Shown here piece by piece: positions 3,082 to 36,683 of a DNA stretch of 36,941 bases (within the stretch, counting starts at the first letter, position 1; each line of letters begins with the position of its first letter). This DNA is from an uncultured Erysipelotrichaceae bacterium (GTDB taxonomy: Bacteria > Bacillota_I > Bacilli_A > Erysipelotrichales > Erysipelotrichaceae). A program made the translations under genes and the position numbers. The notes beneath the pieces were generated by a model, which worked only from the letters and a program-made list of their open reading frames with translations, was not told the DNA's origin and ran no database searches. The stretch spans positions 1-36,941 of the forward strand of contig CASFOT010000083.1 in the NCBI GenBank assembly GCA_949296305.1. Direction: 5' to 3'.

Positions 3082-3687
3082 TCAAACGAGTTCATATGTT
3101 TGATCCCCTGTATATAGATGATGGACTTGATCACAGATGTGCTGGACACAGTCGAAAGTGACATGCATGCTTTCAATCAACCCTTGTTTCCATTCGCTTG
3201 CAACGACATCTTCTTTAAATGCAAGCAAGCTTTTTTTCGTATCTTCCATCATTGTCCACAAACAGCTATCATCTTCCAGCTGTTTCATTTGATACAGCTG
3301 CATGGCCATGCGCAGTGTTTTCACAAACTGCTGTTCTGTTCTTTGCGCACAGCTGCGAGCACCGGGATCTTTGCAGCGATTTGCAAAGGATGCAACAATA
3401 CGTGCATGATCTTTGATTTGAATGAGTTCTTTCGTGATGTTTGAAGATGCAGACAGCCGTCTTTGATCAATGGAAGTTCCTTGCAAATAGGGTTTAAGTT
3501 CCCGGATCTTGTGTTCAATGATCTCACCCATCCGTTGGATCCGCTGTTCTTTCTTCATGACTTTATAAAGGGTTTGATATTCTTTTCCATCTAACATCTG
3601 AATACATATTTCATATTGGCTGCAGACAGTTTCACAGATGCTGACAACCGTGCTGGTTAACCGCTCTGTTTTGCTTTCAAGATTCAT
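3082..3687 (-). CDS. PhoU-like helical protein, last gene of the pst operon
   Basis: About 201 aa, predicted almost entirely helical, rich in Q/E/K and with five or six scattered cysteines. It has the size and helical layout of PhoU and follows phoU directly (about 37 nt gap), but lacks the clear E-D metal motifs of the true PhoU next door. Two ATGs are possible. AGGAGG at 3695-3700 is 1 nt from the ATG at 3693 and 7 nt from the ATG at 3687, so 3687 (MNLESK) is preferred. By position it is probably an accessory phosphate-signalling protein. The PhoU relationship is inferred from layout and weak similarity. Confidence 0.6.
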   Translation of the reverse strand: MNLESKTERLTSTVVSICETVCSQYEICIQMLDGKEYQTLYKVMKKEQRIQRMGEIIEHKIRELKPYLQGTSIDQRRLSASSNITKELIQIKDHARIVASFANRCKDPGARSCAQRTEQQFVKTLRMAMQLYQMKQLEDDSCLWTMMEDTKKSLLAFKEDVVASEWKQGLIESMHVTFDCVQHICDQVHHLYTGDQTYELV

Positions 3688-3724
3688 CGCCATTCCTCCT
3701 GTCTGTCATCCAACTGACTACTCA

Positions 3725-4372
3725 TTAACCGAAATCGTAGTGCTGCCCTTTCATCATATACAAAACATGCTCGCAGATATTTTTGACATGATCGCCCGCG
3801 CGTTCGATATTGCGTAGCATTGCACTGATCTCAAAGAGTTCTTTTAATGTGTCTTCTTTTGATTCCTCTTTATTTGAAAGCAGCTTCTCACGGATATCTC
3901 TCATTTGCTGATTGATCAAATGATCGCTTTCTGGTATCGCAAATGCAGCTTCTTCATCTTGATCGACCATGCATTGCATTGCCTTTTCCAACATGCTGAT
4001 GAGATCTTTTTCCATCGAAATTGCATAATCTGCTACAACATCACTTAAGTTTTCGTTTTTAATAAGAAACTTTGCAATATTCTTCGCATAGTCTCCAATT
4101 CTTTCTAACTCGGTTGCGATCTTGATCGTCCCGATCACTTTCCGAAGATCCGTTGCGACCGGAGCAAGCAGTGCCAATGATTCGATTGCTAGATCATTGA
4201 TCTCTTCTTCCATATGATTGATACGATCATCTGCTTGAATAATCTCTAATTCACGTTCTTTATTTGGAACAGCTAATACTTCACATACACATTCATGCAT
4301 GCTAACAACCCGATTACCCATTTTGACCAATGTCTGTTCCATCTGTGAAAGCTTTCCATCAATTCTTATCAT
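3725..4372 (-). CDS. phoU: Phosphate signalling/transport regulator PhoU
   Basis: 215 aa, the usual PhoU length, made of two three-helix repeats. The ATELERIGDYAKNIAKF segment (about residues 88-105) and its counterpart RNIERAGDHVKNICEHVLYM near the C terminus are the duplicated E(R)xGD(H/Y)xxN metal-binding signatures of PhoU. PhoU couples the Pst transporter to the Pho sensor kinase and limits phosphate uptake. AGGAGG sits 8 nt before the ATG and just after the pstB stop codon, so the two genes are closely coupled. Confidence 0.95.
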   Translation of the reverse strand: MIRIDGKLSQMEQTLVKMGNRVVSMHECVCEVLAVPNKERELEIIQADDRINHMEEEINDLAIESLALLAPVATDLRKVIGTIKIATELERIGDYAKNIAKFLIKNENLSDVVADYAISMEKDLISMLEKAMQCMVDQDEEAAFAIPESDHLINQQMRDIREKLLSNKEESKEDTLKELFEISAMLRNIERAGDHVKNICEHVLYMMKGQHYDFG

Positions 4373-4386
4373 TTTTCTGCCTCCTT

Positions 4387-5145
4387 TTAACCAAAACGAC
4401 CAGTGATGTAATCTTCTGTTCGTTTATCTTTTGGATTTTGGAAGATCACGCTTGTTTTATCAAATTCCACCATTTCACCTAATAAGAAAAACGCAGTATG
4501 ATCACTGACACGAGCAGCCTGCTGCATATTATGCGTGACGATGACGATCGTATAGTCTTTTTTTAGTTCGCACGCCAATTCTTCGATCTTATTGGTAGAG
4601 ATTGGGTCTAATGCTGACGTAGGCTCATCCATCAAGATCACTTCAGGTTCCATGGCGATCGTTCGTGCGATGCATAACCGCTGCTGCTGTCCACCAGAAA
4701 GTCCATATGCACTTTCTTTCAAGCGATCTTTTACTTCATCCCAAAGTGCAGAACGTTTTAATGATTGTTCAACGATCGCATTAAGCACCTTTTTATCTTT
4801 AATTCCTTGGCAACGCGGCCCATAAGCGATATTGTCATAAATTGACATCGGGAATGGATTTGGTTTTTGAAACACCATGCCCACACGTGTGCGCAAGTCA
4901 ACGACGTTTAAATTCCCTTTGTTGATATCGGTTCCTTCCAGCAAGATGTCTCCTTCGATACGGCAGCCATCAATTAAGTCATTCATACGATTCAGGCAGC
5001 GTAAGAACGTAGACTTGCCACATCCAGAAGGTCCGATCAATGCCGTGATCGCATTCTTTTCGATCTTCATGTTGAGATCGATCAATGCTTGTTTTTCTCC
5101 ATAAAACAGATTTAGATGATTTACATCAAATATTACATTCTCCAT
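4387..5145 (-). CDS. pstB: Phosphate ABC transporter ATP-binding protein PstB
   Basis: 252 aa, standard PstB length. Motifs in order: Walker [10 protein letters not shown] (38-46), Q-loop in [21 protein letters not shown] (a PstB hallmark), ABC signature LSGGQQQR, Walker [14 protein letters not shown], and the switch histidine in [10 protein letters not shown]. It powers high-affinity phosphate uptake together with PstC and PstA. The gene begins about 10 nt after pstA; AGGAGG immediately follows the TAG stop of pstA. Confidence 0.98.
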
Positions 5146-5155
5146 ACGCTACCTC

Positions 5156-6397
5156 CTAATACCAAGCTTTTGAGAATCGCTTACTGATCGCTTTGACCGC
5201 AAAGTTCAAAATCAACACAAAGAACAGGATGATGATCGAGATGGCACATGCCAGTTCAAAGTTTGGCTGTTCCCCGCTCATGACGCTCCAGATCTGTACT
5301 GCCAAAGAGGTTCCTTGGCTTAACAATGTTGGCGAGTCATTGATGAATGTACCCATCGTATAGATCAAGGCAGCTGATTCACCGATGACACGGCCGATTC
5401 CAAGCAATACGCCTGTCAAGATCCCAGGCACAGCACAAGGCAATACGATTTTAAAAATCGTCTGTGATTGATTAGCACCTACCGATAAAGAGGCATCCCG
5501 TAAATGCTGTGGCACGACCAAGAGTGCTTCCTCAGTCGAGCGGATAATGGTTGGCAGCAAAATAATCGCCATGGTCAGACCGCCCAGCAAAATGCTTGTC
5601 GTCGTTGCGCCAAAAATCTGCGTCACTGGAAATAATACCGTCACTCCCATCAGACCAAAGACAATGCTGGGCACGCCAGTCAATGTTTCCACACCGCTTC
5701 TCAACATCATATTAAATTTTGATTTCCGCGCGTATTCATTTAAATAAATCGCAGCCGCAACACCAATCGGAATAGCGATCAATAAAGATACCAACAATAA
5801 ATAAAATGTAGAAAGAATGGAACCTCGGATCCCGCCGCCAGTTGTCTGAATATATAAAGCGTCTACACTTTCAGCTTCTTCGTCTAATGTATGAGCCAGC
5901 TGCTGTGCATTCTGTCCTGCTAATTTTCCAGCTAATCGAATCGTTCCTTCTGCATCAGTATATTGCAGGCGGGTAATCTGCATCCCAACTTGAAGCTGCT
6001 TCTCTTTTGGATTTTTACGGATACTGACATCATTTAATGCATATAATGGTGATCGTTCATCGATATATTCCACCAAGATCATCTTATTTTTATGTGCATC
6101 CACATGATCGACAAAAGCAATGCCCCATTCTTGTGAGAAAAAAGCATCCTCACTGAGATCTGCCGGCCGTTCAAATGTCGTATTCGATTGAGCGGTGATG
6201 GTCTCTGCTGAATAATTTTCTGACCAATAATTGCTTTTTATCAAATCAAAATTGATCAAAGACCATCCTTTCGAAAAAATAAAGATGAACAGTGCGGTCA
6301 GCACCAAAACCGAAATACCGCTGGATACATAGGTACATCCTTGCAGGACCCCATCATAAAAGCGTCTTTTTTTCTGATTTCCGGTTTTTACGTTCAT
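5156..6397 (-). CDS. pstA: Phosphate ABC transporter permease PstA with a large extracytoplasmic insertion
   Basis: 413 aa, well over the roughly 280-300 aa common for PstA. TM1 is at about residues 26-48. A hydrophilic segment of about 145 residues (48-192) follows, before the conserved BPD_transp_1 core (193-413) with PSIVFGLMG and the EAA-like loop around ASLSVGANQSQT. The insertion should lie outside the membrane and includes a stretch that loosely recalls a PDZ-like fold; that is only an impression. The start overlaps the end of pstC by 4 nt (ATGA). It ends with TAG, followed at once by the AGGAGG of pstB. Confidence 0.92.
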   Translation of the reverse strand: MNVKTGNQKKRRFYDGVLQGCTYVSSGISVLVLTALFIFIFSKGWSLINFDLIKSNYWSENYSAETITAQSNTTFERPADLSEDAFFSQEWGIAFVDHVDAHKNKMILVEYIDERSPLYALNDVSIRKNPKEKQLQVGMQITRLQYTDAEGTIRLAGKLAGQNAQQLAHTLDEEAESVDALYIQTTGGGIRGSILSTFYLLLVSLLIAIPIGVAAAIYLNEYARKSKFNMMLRSGVETLTGVPSIVFGLMGVTVLFPVTQIFGATTTSILLGGLTMAIILLPTIIRSTEEALLVVPQHLRDASLSVGANQSQTIFKIVLPCAVPGILTGVLLGIGRVIGESAALIYTMGTFINDSPTLLSQGTSLAVQIWSVMSGEQPNFELACAISIIILFFVLILNFAVKAISKRFSKAWY

Positions 6398-7335
6398 GAC
6401 ATATTCCCTACTTTCCTCTTTACTAAGTTTAATAAGAAGTTCGATACCAAGATGACCACCATCAATACCAAGCCTACTGAAAAGCGAATATCATAATCTA
6501 AGCCGGTCGTTTCTTTCAACCCAGAAAGCATCGTGCTGGTCAGCGTGCGTGTAATATCGAAAAGATCAAACGTTGGTCCAAACATCTTGTTTCCGGCGAC
6601 CATCGCTACCGCAGTTGCTTCACCAAAGGCACGGCCGATCCCCAAGATCGCTCCTGCAAAGATTCCGGATTTTGCAGCAATCAATACGACCTTAAAATTT
6701 GTTTGTGTTTTTGTTGCCCCTAATGCCAAGCTTCCTTCTTCTAAAGAGCGGTCAACAGAGCGGATCGCTGTGATAGATAAAGAAGTGATCGTTGGAAAGA
6801 TCATAATCGCAAGCAGCAAGATCACAGATAAAAACGAATTCCCCCCTGCAGTAGATACGCCAACAGATGCAGCCAGATCCATAACGAACGTTGTGATTAC
6901 GCCGGCCGCAAAGACACCATATACGACCGAAGGAATGCTGGCAAGGAGCTCAACGATGGTCGTCATGATCTTAGCAAGCCAGTTTGGTGCAATCTTTACG
7001 ATAAACAGAGCAGTTAACACGCTGAGCGGAAAAGCGATCAGCAACGCACCAAAGGATGTAAGAAGCGTATTGATGACGATAAAGCCTACACCATAGATTC
7101 CTTGGTCTTGCCGCCAAGTCGTTCCAAACAGAAAATCAATGATCGAGACTTGCCCATTTGCATATCCTGGAAGGAAGGGCTGCACGCCGCGCATGAAGAC
7201 AAATAGTGCAATCACGGCGATCGCACCGCCCGAAAGTACAGCAGCGATCCGAAAGATTCCTTTTAATAGTGCATCTTTCTGCATCTTTCTTTGATTTTTT
7301 TCTGGACTGATATGTGGTCTAACTAATTTTTCCAT
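6394..7335 (-). CDS. pstC: Phosphate ABC transporter permease PstC
   Basis: 313 aa with six membrane segments and the MetI/BPD_transp_1 fold. Recognisable features are TM1 near residues 27-50, a core with LLASIPSVVYGVFA, and the coupling-helix motif around EGSLALGATKTQTN. PstC and PstA form the heterodimeric membrane channel of the Pst system. It overlaps pstA by 4 nt, which suggests translational coupling and equal amounts. It lies 85 nt from pstS, and that gap contains an intrinsic hairpin (7364-7396). Confidence 0.96.
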   Translation of the reverse strand: MEKLVRPHISPEKNQRKMQKDALLKGIFRIAAVLSGGAIAVIALFVFMRGVQPFLPGYANGQVSIIDFLFGTTWRQDQGIYGVGFIVINTLLTSFGALLIAFPLSVLTALFIVKIAPNWLAKIMTTIVELLASIPSVVYGVFAAGVITTFVMDLAASVGVSTAGGNSFLSVILLLAIMIFPTITSLSITAIRSVDRSLEEGSLALGATKTQTNFKVVLIAAKSGIFAGAILGIGRAFGEATAVAMVAGNKMFGPTFDLFDITRTLTSTMLSGLKETTGLDYDIRFSVGLVLMVVILVSNFLLNLVKRKVGNMS

Positions 7336-7420: not shown

Positions 7421-8344
7421 TTACTTCAATTCAGACCAAGCACTAATTTCTCCGCTATAGATTCCTTTGATCTGTTCTGCAGTCAAGTTGGTTACCGCTT
7501 CATTATCCGCACTGACAACTGCAACGACTGCATCGATGCAATACTGTCCGTTTGCTAATGCTTTTGAGACATCTTCATCATCCTCAAAGCTGCGGGATGC
7601 AAATCCGATATCTGCTGCATTTGCGCCATCTTTTTCATCACCGAGCACGCGTTTATAACCATCACCGGAACCACTTTGGTTCATAGTGAACTGAAATTGT
7701 CCTGCTTCAGCCTGGAATGCCTCTAAAGCTGCTTTCAATGTACCTTCTACCGAAGTCGATCCTGCTGTACGAATTGTTAGATCTGAATTGTCTTCATCTA
7801 CGATCGGATGATTTTTCTTTAATTCTGCCCAAGGTGTCGTTTTATCTAAATCAACGATTCCACCAGCTTCTTTTACGACCTGCTGTCCTTCCGTAGAATT
7901 GCACAGATAATCGATAAATGCTTCTACTAATGCCTGTGTGCGATCATCTGCGAAATCCCCATCTGCTCTGGTTACATAAGAGAACGGACGCTGCATACCA
8001 TAGCTGCCATCTAATACCGTTTCTTCTGTTGGTGTAACACCTTCATAATCTAATGCTTTCAAATTGTTTGCTTCAAAATTTGTAGACAGAGATACATATC
8101 CAAATCCATTTGCATCCTGTCCTACTTTTGTAGCCATATCGCCATTGCTGTCAACAGTGACTGCGTGATCGGTCAATGTCTTTTCCATATCATTTGCTTT
8201 TTCAAAAGCCTCGCGTGTACCGCTGGATGCATCACGAGAATAAACAGTGATCGAATCATTGCCATTGCTGCCCCCGCAGCCAGTTAATGTCAATCCCATC
8301 AAACAGGCGATGGAAAATGCTGTTAATTTTTTCATGAACTTCAT
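7421..8344 (-). CDS. pstS: Phosphate-binding lipoprotein PstS, circularly permuted domain order
   Basis: 307 aa. The signal peptide ends in lipobox LTGC, making Cys23 the predicted lipid anchor. The elements of a PstS-like binding protein occur in swapped order. The mature protein starts with the half-domain holding ITVYSRDASSGTR (32-44), normally in the second half. The part that normally comes first follows: GSTSV (195-199), SGSGDG (224-229), ADIGFASR (244-251), and the NLTAEQIKGIY...W region (286-304), where the protein ends. The break falls between the usual W-x-E-L element and the I-x-V-x-SR element. AGGAGG lies 9 nt before the ATG. First gene of the pst operon, behind a Pho-box-like array. 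Confidence 0.9.
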   Translation of the reverse strand: MKFMKKLTAFSIACLMGLTLTGCGGSNGNDSITVYSRDASSGTREAFEKANDMEKTLTDHAVTVDSNGDMATKVGQDANGFGYVSLSTNFEANNLKALDYEGVTPTEETVLDGSYGMQRPFSYVTRADGDFADDRTQALVEAFIDYLCNSTEGQQVVKEAGGIVDLDKTTPWAELKKNHPIVDEDNSDLTIRTAGSTSVEGTLKAALEAFQAEAGQFQFTMNQSGSGDGYKRVLGDEKDGANAADIGFASRSFEDDEDVSKALANGQYCIDAVVAVVSADNEAVTNLTAEQIKGIYSGEISAWSELK

Positions 8345-11912: not shown

Positions 11913-11941
11913 ATTATACTAGTCTTTTATTATCTTCGCAA
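11913..11941 (-). promoter_or_regulatory. Promoter of the MFS gene inside the 3' end of the AAA+ gene
   Basis: On the minus strand TTGCGA (11941-11936) and a perfect TATAAT (11918-11913) are separated by 17 bp. The -35 falls within the last codons of the AAA+ gene. The predicted leader before the MFS start codon is about 80 nt. Confidence 0.65.
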
Positions 11942-14530
11942 TTGCTGATATCGCGCACATTCTTCATCTGATAAAGATCTTCTTGTATGTCTGATCAGAT
12001 CTTCGCAGTCTTGCTGTGTCATGATCGTTTCACGATTCTCGATCATCTGATCTAATAATCTTTCTTTTATTCTACGGCATGCCCCGGCAATATCCGCACA
12101 GCTAAAGCCTTCGCTAAGTTCAGCAAGCGGGCGGCAGTTAATATGGGGCAGCTGTGAATGCAGATATAACTGGAACTGCTTTTCGCGAGAATTCATATCT
12201 GGTAAACCGATATAAACAATATGATCAAAACGTCCTGGACGTTTCAATGCCGGATCAATGATATCGATGCGGTTGGTAGCTGCCAGCACGATCACACCAT
12301 CGAGTTCCTCCATTCCATCCATTTCTGTGAGCAGCTGGTTGATCAATCTGACTGAAGTCTGATTAGAAGAACGGTTTTCTGCAATTGAATCAAATTCATC
12401 AAAGAAAATGATGGCTGGTTTCTGTTCTCTAGCATCACGAAATACCCTGCGCAGTTTTTCTTCACTTTCTCCAACTCTGCCACTCAGCAGTTCAGGTCCA
12501 TTTACACATAAGAAAGCCGCTTTGCATTCACTTGCAACTACTTTGGCAAATAACGTCTTTCCACATCCAGGAGGACCAAACAGCAAGGTTCCTTTCGGCC
12601 GTGTCAGATCCAGTTTCCTATACATGTCCGCATATAAGAGCGGTTTCTCAACATATTTTCGAATTGCCTCCTTTTCCATTTCCATACCGGCAATGCTGTC
12701 CCAGGTATAACGCTTTTCTTCTTGCTGCGGCTCCTGTGCAAGCAAGCGTCGATTATACTGCATCTTCAGCTTTTCATATTTATCACGCATATCCAGCGTT
12801 ACTGTTGGCTGATATGATTGTGCACCGTGCAAGATTGTCTGAACATCTAATGGTTCATAGTGATTTTGGCGATACAGTTCTTTGATCAGCCCTTCTATAT
12901 CTGCAGCAGTGAACCGTTCCAATTTCCCAGCCACTTCTTTTATTTCTGTGTCAGAAAGCACACTTTTCTCTCCTAGATATTTTTTCAAGATTGCTTGTTT
13001 TGCATCCAGATCAGGTTCACTGATATATATGCATTTGTCAAAACGTCCAGGACGGATCGCGGCTGCATCGATCTGGTCAGGATAATTCGTTGCGCCGATG
13101 ACCAATACGCCTTTCAATTTATCAAAACCATCCATCTGAGCAAGAAATGTTGTTACCAATGTTTTCTCCCAGCTATTCTGTGCTTTCTCTCTGGAAGGCA
13201 AAAAGGATTCTAGCTCATCAAAAAAGAGAATACACGGAGCCTTTTCTTTCGCCTGTTCAAAGATCATGCGAAGATTACGATCACTTTCCCCGACCCATTT
13301 GCTTGTAAACTGAGCCCCGGCTACGGTCATGATATTCATTTTCGATTCACTGGCAATGGCTTTGGCAAACAGTGTTTTTCCACAACCCGGCGGTCCAAAC
13401 AACAATAACCCTTTTACCGGTTCGATATGACTTTCTTTCATTTTTTTCATGACCTTGCTATCCAGATAAGGTTCTAAGGCCTGTTTGAGTTCTTCTTTTA
13501 CATCTTCATAACCAGCAATGCTCGCCCATCCTTCTTTGATCTGATCTTTTTGAACTTGGGACACGACTTGAGATAATCGTTCTTTTTGTTCTAATGCCTG
13601 CTTCTCTTCATATGTAGGTATTTCATTGCAAGCATGATATGGCAAGAACAAAGCGCATGCAAATCCGCATAAAAGTCCAAAGATTAACAACAGCAATGAA
13701 CCGATATGTACTGCTGAATCATTGACAAGAGAAAGAACGATTGCCATACCTGAAATAACGATGACAGAAACAAGACAAGCAAGCCAGTGTTTAGAAAACG
13801 CATAGTCTTTTTCTTGTGTTTTTGTCAATCGAAGATAATGAAATAAGGCATATAATGAAACCACACTAATCAAGTAGAATACGATGTGATCTTGGATCGT
13901 ATCGATGAAGACCGTATGGAATCCATCTTGTGAAGCAGATAACCAGTTCACCAGACTTGGATCATTCAACACTCCTGAAATATAATCCATCACATTATCC
14001 AGCGGCAGGGCAAACGTTGGCTGCAAGAAAAATGGGATATCTTGAAACAGGCCATATACTGCCATGGAAAATGTACACATCAATGCAGTCAATAACGGGA
14101 TCCCAAACCCCCTGTGAATGCAATAAATGGAATAAATACCTAAAGCGAGCCCTAACGCAAACGTACTCCTTCCATTCATCAACAAAAAGAATACACAGAA
14201 ATAACCCAATGTATTTTTCCCATAAGATGCCCCAAACGCAGCAATCACGCCGAACAACATCATCAAGAAAGCAGTGCCGACACTATTTGATAATAGATGA
14301 ACCGCAAATAACGAAGCGGCCAGCACATAAGCAATTTCTGTTTTTAAAAATGCCGTTCCTACGATCACAGCTAAGCAGATCAATAACAATCCTTGAGAAA
14401 GCATGTTCCACTGAGAAAGATTTAAATAGCAGATCCATGCACAAAAAACAACAAGCCCATATGGAAACCATCGCTGGATCGCAGCATATCGTTGATGGAT
14501 CTCCTGCTGGATCATATCCATTCTTTCCAT
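11930..14530 (-). CDS. Membrane-anchored tandem AAA+ ATPase (Cdc48/p97-like double ATPase)
   Basis: 866 aa. Residues 1-300 hold about ten hydrophobic membrane segments (roughly 22-40, 43-62, 64-82, 84-100, 107-137, 143-164, 208-233, 248-268, 274-297). Two AAA+ modules follow. The first has Walker A GPPGCGKT (379-386), Walker B CILFFDELE (433-441), sensor-1 GATN and RPGRFD (493-498). The second has Walker A (652-659), Walker B AIIFFDEFD (706-714), AATNRIDIIDPAL and RPGRFD (764-769). Both keep the arginine-finger region. There is no protease motif (no HExxH), unlike FtsH. The layout suggests a hexameric unfoldase or extractase for membrane proteins; that role is inferred. AGGGGG lies 8 nt before the ATG at 14530; an upstream in-frame codon at 14569 lacks a ribosome binding site. 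Confidence 0.9.
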   Translation of the reverse strand: MERMDMIQQEIHQRYAAIQRWFPYGLVVFCAWICYLNLSQWNMLSQGLLLICLAVIVGTAFLKTEIAYVLAASLFAVHLLSNSVGTAFLMMLFGVIAAFGASYGKNTLGYFCVFFLLMNGRSTFALGLALGIYSIYCIHRGFGIPLLTALMCTFSMAVYGLFQDIPFFLQPTFALPLDNVMDYISGVLNDPSLVNWLSASQDGFHTVFIDTIQDHIVFYLISVVSLYALFHYLRLTKTQEKDYAFSKHWLACLVSVIVISGMAIVLSLVNDSAVHIGSLLLLIFGLLCGFACALFLPYHACNEIPTYEEKQALEQKERLSQVVSQVQKDQIKEGWASIAGYEDVKEELKQALEPYLDSKVMKKMKESHIEPVKGLLLFGPPGCGKTLFAKAIASESKMNIMTVAGAQFTSKWVGESDRNLRMIFEQAKEKAPCILFFDELESFLPSREKAQNSWEKTLVTTFLAQMDGFDKLKGVLVIGATNYPDQIDAAAIRPGRFDKCIYISEPDLDAKQAILKKYLGEKSVLSDTEIKEVAGKLERFTAADIEGLIKELYRQNHYEPLDVQTILHGAQSYQPTVTLDMRDKYEKLKMQYNRRLLAQEPQQEEKRYTWDSIAGMEMEKEAIRKYVEKPLLYADMYRKLDLTRPKGTLLFGPPGCGKTLFAKVVASECKAAFLCVNGPELLSGRVGESEEKLRRVFRDAREQKPAIIFFDEFDSIAENRSSNQTSVRLINQLLTEMDGMEELDGVIVLAATNRIDIIDPALKRPGRFDHIVYIGLPDMNSREKQFQLYLHSQLPHINCRPLAELSEGFSCADIAGACRRIKERLLDQMIENRETIMTQQDCEDLIRHTRRSLSDEECARYQQLRR

Positions 14531-14650
14531 TTTCTCATCCCCCTTTTCAACCTGTCTAATTATCAACATTATATAAGCTCGTGCAGTATTTCCTTTTATA
14601 CCTACACCAAATGCAAAGAAAATGTCATAAACTGCAACGATTTCTCCTCA

Positions 14651-35241: not shown

Positions 35242-35285
35242 TTTAACATGATGTGTGGGTATCTTTAACATTTGTGTGGATACCC
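35242..35285 (+). repeat. Subterminal direct repeats in the left end of the ISL3 element
   Basis: Two adjacent copies of about 22 bp, TTTAACATGATGTGTGGGTA (35242) and TTTAACATTTGTGTGGATAC (35264), repeat the core of the terminal repeat (TTTAAA...TGTGTGGGT at 35181). A weaker copy (TTTAAAC...GGTGTTGC) starts at 35210. They are candidate transposase-binding sites and occur only in the left end. Confidence 0.7.
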
Positions 35286-35304
35286 CACTTTTTATATAAA
35301 AAAA

Positions 35305-35347
35305 CCTTCGTGTTATCATTTCTTTGCCGAGAAAAAACACACGAAGG
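35305..35347 (+). promoter_or_regulatory. Hairpin sequestering the transposase ribosome binding site
   Basis: CCTTCGTGT (35305-35313) is perfectly complementary to ACACGAAGG (35339-35347), which contains most of the GAAGGAGG Shine-Dalgarno sequence (35343-35350) of the transposase. In a transcript reading in from outside, this 9-bp stem would hide the ribosome binding site. Transcripts starting inside the element downstream of 35313 would escape it. Confidence 0.65.
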
Positions 35348-35360
35348 AGGCAATAAACCT

Positions 35361-36683
35361 ATGTATGATTTTATCACAGATTCATTCAATATCGACAAAA
35401 AGATGATCAAGAAGATTGAAGTGTTTTCTTCAAAAGATTTAACTGAATTTCACATCTCTTTAGTGCCTGAAAAGCTTAGATGTCCATATTGTCATGGCAT
35501 CACTCATTTACACGGCTTTTCTAAGCCTAAAGTAATCAATCATCCAAAGCTTACCGATCGCAAATGCATCATCGTTTTCAAAAACAATAGATTTCAGTGC
35601 AATGAATGCTTGCGCACATTCTCTGGAAAAAATCCTTTCACTTTTTCCAATTTTAAAAATTCATTTCTTTCTATGAACAACATCATGAAATCTTTATCAA
35701 ACCTAAACTATACTTATTCCATGGTAGCCGAATTAAACCATATATCTGTTACTCAGGTGCAGCGCTATTTTGACAGTTTTGTCAACATCCCAAGAATTCG
35801 TCTTCCTGAATCTATCGGTATTGATGAGATCCATTCTAAAATGGCCAAGAGAGCCGATTCTGCTTATTTATGTGTCATGGTAGATAATAAGAACAGATCC
35901 CTATTTGAAATCCTTCCCTCACGTTCCAAAGCCGAATTAAAACGATACTTCGATAGGATTCCATCAGAAGAAAGAAACTGCGTCCATTACGTCACCATCG
36001 ATATGTGCTAGCCTTACAAAAATATAGCCACTACTTATTTAAAGAACGCTATCATAGCTGTAGATCCTTTCCATGTTGTAAAACATCTCATGGACTGTTT
36101 TAAGCGCATCCGCCTTAATATCATGTATCAGGCAGAATACAATTCCAACAGTTATTATCTTCTTAAGACATGGAAAGATCTTATCGAAAGAGATGTTTAT
36201 TTGGATAATGAGCCTGTATACAATAAACGGTTCAAAAAGAAATTAAACAAACGTAATCTCTTAGATATGATATTGGACATCAGTGAAAACCTGGCTCTCG
36301 GATACAGATTAAAAGAGATGTATCTGCACTTCAATGAAAATGCTACAGAAAAGGATTGCGAACCATGGTTCGATTCTATATACGAAGCATTTAGAGAAGC
36401 CCAATTACCTGAATACAATGAATTTGTAGCTATTCTTCAAACTTGGAAAACAGAAATATTAAACTCATTCAAAAGACCTGTTGACGACAGAAAACTAAGC
36501 AACGCACTTTCAGAAAATATCAATGGACAAATCCGTACATACCTGGCAGTTTCCAACGGAGTAAGAAACTTTACAAGATTCAGAAAGCGCTGTTTATTAT
36601 CACTGAACAGAAAAGTATTCTATTCCATAAATGATCAATTAAAGTCAGATAAATATACAACAGATAAAAAACAAAATAATTAA
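35361..36683 (+). pseudogene. ISL3-family transposase interrupted by an in-frame TAG
   Basis: The frame spans 441 codons from the ATG at 35361 (MYDFITDSFNID) to TAA, but codon 217 is TAG (36009-36011). The N terminus has the CPYCHG...CNEC zinc-finger typical of ISL3, an HTH-like YTYSMVAELNHISVTQVQRY, and the DDE core starts at ESIGIDEIH. The stop falls two residues after the second catalytic Asp (VTIDMC-stop-PYKNIA). VDPFHVVKHL and the region with the catalytic Glu (LSENINGQI) follow in the same frame. GAAGGAGG lies 10 nt before the ATG. Unless TAG is read through, the protein is inactive. Confidence 0.85.

Follow-up and report, generated by a model that had tools for sequence, protein, structure and literature searches.

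A probable phosphate-binding lipoprotein PstS with circularly permuted lobes at the head of a pstSCAB-phoU operon in Erysipelotrichaceae

The pst operon and the permuted pstS gene

The analysed window is the whole stretch of 36,941 nucleotides from an uncultured Erysipelotrichaceae bacterium. In this Merdibacter lineage of the Erysipelotrichaceae, a permuted pstS gene heads an intact pstSCAB-phoU operon, which consists of the following features:

7421..8344 (-): permuted pstS gene, 307-aa lipoprotein (intact ORF; TIGR02136 and PF12849 matches; colinear with 4h1x)
6394..7335 (-): pstC, permease (PF00528)
5156..6397 (-): pstA, permease, 413 aa, with an extracytoplasmic insert after TM1 (PF00528 only on residues 209-409)
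5831..6223 (-): insert of PstA, ~130 aa, which separates TM1 from the permease core (alignment and insert profile; co-inherited with group A PstS, defined below)
4387..5145 (-): pstB, ATPase (PF00005)
3725..4372 (-): phoU (PF01895)

No other PstS-like match was found in the genome of the window (86% complete, 156 contigs). The closest named relatives of the protein are from Merdibacter species (92% and 86% identity), which places the window in this genus; two congeners have the same lobe order at 86-93% identity. Directly after phoU lies a second, divergent PhoU-like gene (3082-3693, minus strand), which scored just below the PF01895 cut-off. Elsewhere in the window, the 879-aa protein of 11930-14569 (minus strand) shows, by eye, a number of hydrophobic segments ahead of two AAA ATPase modules; such a CDC48-like arrangement with a membrane anchor is unusual. 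Near the window end (35253-36683, plus strand), two ORFs (252 and 197 aa) look like pieces of a split transposase, probably from a broken insertion sequence.

The pstS gene is a single ORF with an ATG start, and its product could be divided into five parts:

8276..8344 (-): residues 1-23, signal peptide with the lipobox LTGC; C23 as the predicted lipidated cysteine (sequence; C23 in 64/64 aligned relatives)
7967..8251 (-): lobe 2 (D2), residues 32-126, with SRDASSGTR; first here, after hinge 1 normally; approximate boundaries (profile and PDB-chain alignments, AlphaFold model)
7856..7966 (-): D1C, the part of lobe 1 that is C-terminal in canonical PstS, residues ~127-163 (profile and PDB-chain alignments, AlphaFold model)
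7781..7855 (-): linker from the old C-terminus to the old N-terminus, ~25 residues, ~164-188, DKTTPWAELKKNHPIVDEDNS (conservation; model pLDDT ~98)
7424..7780 (-): D1N, the part of lobe 1 that is N-terminal in canonical PstS, residues 189-307, with GSTSV, GSG and ADIGFASR, and the WSELK end at hinge 1 (profile and PDB-chain alignments)

The lobe order is D2-D1C-linker-D1N, and not the canonical D1N-D2-D1C. In ordinary PstS proteins, the ITVYSRDASSGTR-type motif sits after hinge 1. In the window PstS, C23 of the lipobox is followed by only eight residues and then by ITVYSRDASSGTR (residues 32-44); GSTSV (195-199), GSG (225-227) and ADIGFASR (244-251) come late, and the C-terminus is WSELK. The initial annotation had placed the SGTR region right after the lipoprotein signal and the normally N-terminal part last, and both placements agree with these positions.

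Profile matches and the re-ordering control

The TIGR02136 profile matched the native protein in two stretches at 139.2 bits, the best one aligning residues 28-161 with profile positions 160-291. PF12849 also matched in two stretches, and its 89.8 bits are above the gathering score of 27. The phmmer comparison with the canonical PstS chains 4q8r, 4gd5, 1twy and 4n13 of the PDB gave two stretches each, and for 4q8r, 4gd5 and 1twy the alignments as printed have these stretches in swapped order; whereas 4h1x aligned in a single stretch over residues 27-307. For a control, residues 187-307 were placed ahead of residues 31-165. The re-ordered protein gave one contiguous TIGR02136 match (profile 1-291), with 152.4 bits versus 139.2 in the native order; 4q8r, 4gd5 and 1twy each matched in one piece, and 4h1x split in two. 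The permutation is therefore real, because the canonical models match in swapped pieces, and re-ordering makes these matches whole and breaks that of 4h1x. A normal order of the two halves against canonical PstS, which the initial annotation had named as counter-evidence, was not what the alignments gave: the halves are swapped and become contiguous only after re-ordering.

The NCBI curated cut-off for TIGR02136 is 206.6 bits, which the window PstS reached neither in the native order (139.2) nor when re-ordered (152.4). Since re-ordering does not close this gap, the permutation is accompanied by sequence divergence. Judged by these scores, it is a permuted relative of the TIGR02136 PstS proteins, and not a member by the curated cut-off.

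Structure prediction and comparison with known proteins

The AlphaFold2 model of the window PstS, built with the 64-sequence alignment, has a mean pLDDT of 92.9 and a pTM of 0.86; the linker between the old termini reaches a pLDDT of about 98. The top Foldseek match in the PDB was 4h1x (SP_2084), with an E value of 4.1e-26 and a TM score of 0.88 (target length) over 287 columns. It was followed by OpuAC (TM ~0.5), and the canonical 4q8r had a TM score of 0.37, which is low because a sequential method here meets a permutation. The fold predicted is thus not one unrelated to PstS, the other outcome that would have spoken against the initial annotation. Its proposal that the protein breaks at the natural hinge and keeps the fold was supported by the swapped and re-ordered matches, the confident model and the colinear fold match of 4H1X.

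The 4H1X structure was released in 2012 and is colinear with the window PstS; therefore a permuted PstS has been in the PDB since then. No paper discussing a permuted PstS was found in the open-access literature. The order is rarely noted in papers, as initially stated, but a solved example has long been deposited.

The window PstS and PstS2 of Streptococcus pneumoniae (SP_2084, 4H1X) share the permuted order, colinearity over the whole chain, the bilobed fold (TM 0.88) and the phosphate-binding annotation of the latter. Their sequence identity is 28%, however, and the linker of 4H1X is shorter and lacks the W...DNS signature. With canonical PstS (TIGR02136/PF12849; 4Q8R, 4GD5, 1TWY), the window protein has the lobes, motifs and operon in common, and a contiguous match once re-ordered. 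The canonical proteins have the order D1N-D2-D1C, two crossings between the lobes and a lipid anchor leading into lobe 1; the window PstS differs in each of these.

Two other binding proteins were compared. OpuAC, the glycine-betaine-binding protein of Bacillus subtilis and next best sequential fold match, belongs to another ligand family and shares 13-15% identity with the window PstS; OpuAC is itself permuted relative to ProX of Escherichia coli. TpMglB-2 (Tp0684) of Treponema pallidum, a ‘Cluster Bc’ protein, is likewise a naturally permuted, lipid-anchored ABC binding protein. However, it has a type I sugar-binding fold of another family and another permutation point, and represents a separate event from PstS. 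This fold was not found for the window PstS, which matched PF12849 and 4H1X instead. A link between permutation and tethering was proposed by the authors of the TpMglB-2 study (PMC4990184).

Conserved residues and the ligand

The anion-binding motifs RxxxSGTR, GSTS, GS and the D of ADIG are all present in the window PstS, and all but the D are invariant or nearly so in 64 aligned relatives. R37, S41-G42-T43-R44, G195, S196, S198, S226 and R251 are identical in 64/64 sequences, and T197 in 63/64. The linker also contains conserved residues, namely W172 (63/64) and D185 (60/64). From the ligand-motif residues, the operon and 4h1x, we infer that the window PstS binds phosphate.

The variable position is residue 245, the aspartate of ADIG (window 7610-7612), which is D in 48/64, H in 11/64, E in 4/64 and S in 1/64 of the aligned group A sequences. 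The histidine found in 11 of these might alter anion recognition.

Distribution and phylogeny

The PstS type was read from the order of profile matches in a phylum sample of 392 genomes, one of which falls in two classes. The window type (group A) was found in 74/392 genomes, including five tandem forms and one re-permuted form; a second permuted type, similar to 4h1x (group B), in 8/392; and the canonical order in 25/392. The plain or tandem D2-first order occurs in 81/392 genomes, with the re-permuted one counted apart. The permuted order is a lineage trait and the majority arrangement in the sampled phylum. This is what the initial annotation had suspected when it called the order a lineage trait rather than unique, and the 81 permuted versus 25 canonical genomes agree with it. 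In the other family of the same taxonomic order (f2), the PstS matches were read as canonical.

Isolates also have the permuted order in the same operon position, for example Merdibacter massiliensis, Holdemania filiformis and Erysipelothrix species. Beyond the phylum sample, group A occurs in Clostridia such as Youngiibacter and Helcococcus, in line with the similar order that the initial annotation had mentioned for some Clostridia proteins. Other permuted cases include one Treponema and S. pneumoniae: group B was found in Monoglobus and Treponema saccharophilum, as the first gene of the pst operon both times. The two RefSeq records of permuted PstS that were examined are named only ‘substrate-binding domain-containing protein’.

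The tree of canonicalised sequences placed group A and group B, the latter being the branch of 4H1X, apart from each other, with canonical proteins between them. Several independent permutations were considered on the basis of this split; however, a single A+B clade was not rejected (p-AU 0.133), and therefore one or two permutation origins both stand. A permuted PstS-like protein on a long branch was also found outside any pst operon in genome G023 (L017, L233), which has a canonical homologue as well; the protein after this gene resembles a Na/phosphate symporter by its QSSSAT motif.

Tandem copies and a second permutation

Some relatives carry several permuted units in one frame, and one carries the lobes in a third order:

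L055 492-2333 (+): tandem in-frame permuted PstS fusion, one lipid anchor
L056 1152-2924 (-): tandem in-frame permuted PstS fusion, one lipid anchor
L057 1006-2928 (-): tandem in-frame permuted PstS fusion, one lipid anchor
L058 785-2608 (+): tandem in-frame permuted PstS fusion, one lipid anchor
L059 521-2473 (+): tandem in-frame permuted PstS fusion, one lipid anchor
L100 575-3448 (+): tandem in-frame permuted PstS fusion, three units
L128 2896-5610 (+): tandem in-frame permuted PstS fusion, three units
L061 946-1872 (-): re-permuted PstS, D1C-linker-D1N-D2, directly upstream of pstC (genome G284)

The two-unit proteins were found in five genomes of the 392-genome sample (591-651 aa), and the three-unit proteins in two named metagenome loci, L100 (958 aa) and L128 (905 aa). 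Copies within one protein are 81-98% identical, which points to recent duplication or homogenisation. Pairing of D1 of one copy with D2 of the next, by which a canonical unit would be restored, was considered as well. The fragment model of two copies matched 4H1X with a TM score of 0.81, but its fit to canonical chains had an rmsd of about 20 Å; the placement of the copies relative to each other is uncertain in this model (pTM 0.52). Each tandem copy therefore seems to fold on its own, as a 4H1X-like unit, and the junction between the copies does not show the canonical pairing.

The PstS of G284 consists of lipobox, D1C, linker, D1N and D2, and ends with ...LKRPFMFVTRY about 17 bases before pstC. 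The signature that marks the linker of the first permutation (KSWDEVKENHPV..DNS) is still present, and a canonical-like D1N-D2 join has been regained. This protein is a second permutation, with the cut at hinge 2. The nearest relative found of L061 (60% identity) is from G422, another genus of the same family; it is singly permuted and has RPFMFVTRY inside the chain. The genus-mate G197 carries a tandem form; direct derivation of L061 from that gene was considered, but is unsupported by the tree. The tandem fusions and the second permutation show that duplication and trimming do take place in this gene family. In addition, genome G483 has a tandem PstS (L147 958-2767, minus strand) whose first lobe 2 is broken by a frameshift, with the second ORF starting at hinge 2; this is either a sequencing error or a step toward re-permutation.

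The PstA insert

The PstA insert lies between TM1 and the next membrane segment and is extracytoplasmic by position; in the alignment, neither the canonical nor the group B operons have it. An insert profile (A4) was searched against group A, group B and canonical genomes. It matched 72/74 group A genomes; in both misses the operon is cut by or near a contig end, which leaves 72/72 testable genomes. There were no matches in the 8 group B genomes or in the 24 genomes with only canonical PstS (0/32 together). In the 4H1X branch, the operons examined, which are those of relatives of the pneumococcal protein, are likewise without the insert, in contrast to group A. Because group A is one branch, the insert and the group A PstS represent one inherited package and not many independent events, and the Fisher value for these counts does not constitute independent evidence. 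Family f12 has the insert too, and this speaks for its assignment to group A.

No Pfam family covers the insert, and a PDB sequence search with it gave no match. A PDZ identity was considered, but the motif is only reminiscent: PDZ_2 matched in one relative only, with an insignificant E value of 0.04, and the hhalign probabilities against PDZ, 17% for all sequences and 48% for one subfamily, are also not significant. The P2 loop of MalF (cited in PMC8134467) is a docking element for the maltose-binding protein. By analogy, it is possible that the PstA insert contacts PstS and helps to dock it.

Interpretation and alternative explanations

The protein of 7421-8344 is, with a probability of about 90%, the phosphate-binding lipoprotein PstS of a pstSCAB-phoU importer, circularly permuted at hinge 1. 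Such a protein would capture phosphate in its interlobe cleft and pass it on to PstC/PstA like any PstS. In the permuted chain each lobe is continuous, with one crossing between the lobes instead of the two in canonical PstS, and the lipid anchor, which in canonical PstS leads into lobe 1, enters lobe 2 at the hinge. It is from this entry of the lipid into lobe 2 that the idea of an altered tethering arises. The order probably arose when a tandem duplicate became fused and then lost sequence at both ends; and in group A the extracytoplasmic domain of PstA might help to dock PstS, as hypothesised from the MalF P2 loop.

A permuted binding protein of this fold could instead serve another oxyanion, or act only as a sensor and not in phosphate uptake. 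The unreached TIGR02136 cut-off in either order and the histidine at the ADIG aspartate position in 11/64 relatives would fit such a protein, but the permuted pstS stands first in pstSCAB-phoU in the window as well as in relatives, the SGTR, GSTS and GS motifs are invariant or nearly so, and the nearest structure carries a phosphate-binding annotation; both of these roles are improbable. An artefact of assembly or annotation (a rearranged contig or a frameshift) might be suspected in a genome of 156 contigs. However, the ORF is intact with a correctly placed signal peptide, and the same lobe order recurs in the two congeners of 86-93% identity and in many isolate genomes, so that the relatives refute an artefact.

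The meaning of the permuted PstS is more evenly disputed. An origin via duplication and trimming could be neutral, a reading that competes seriously with the adaptive one and is compatible with the PstS identity: the permutation would be an accident kept by descent, with tethering, docking and opening unchanged, to which we give slightly less than an even chance. The ordinary bilobed fold in the AlphaFold model and 4H1X is consistent with this, and the type I protein TpMglB-2, though permuted, still binds glucose and closes (PMC4990184). On the other side, the permuted order is the majority state in the sampled phylum, is retained in tandem and re-permuted forms, and is co-inherited with the PstA insert, although none of these points proves adaptation. 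We tentatively suggest, at odds a little short of even, that the Pst importer of the phylum was rebuilt as a package of hinge-1-permuted PstS and PstA docking domain, and that PstS was then duplicated and trimmed, which gave rise to proteins with two or three units per lipid anchor and, at hinge 2, to a second permutation. The tandem fusions, the second permutation and the PstA package go beyond the initial annotation; the permuted order itself was already in the PDB.

Profile models in the canonical order score the permuted PstS as two fragments, which is a warning for annotation. Most known circular permutations of binding proteins come from engineered sensors or individual structures. Across the relatives studied here, a single uptake gene is found in the canonical order, permuted, doubled or tripled in frame, and permuted once more, and therefore the duplication-and-trimming model is testable with natural sequences. 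Moreover, the extra PstA domain is a concrete place to ask whether the permutation changed the contact between PstS and the permease. If the package reading is true, successive circular permutations would have occurred naturally within a single protein family, and the transporter would have changed to match.
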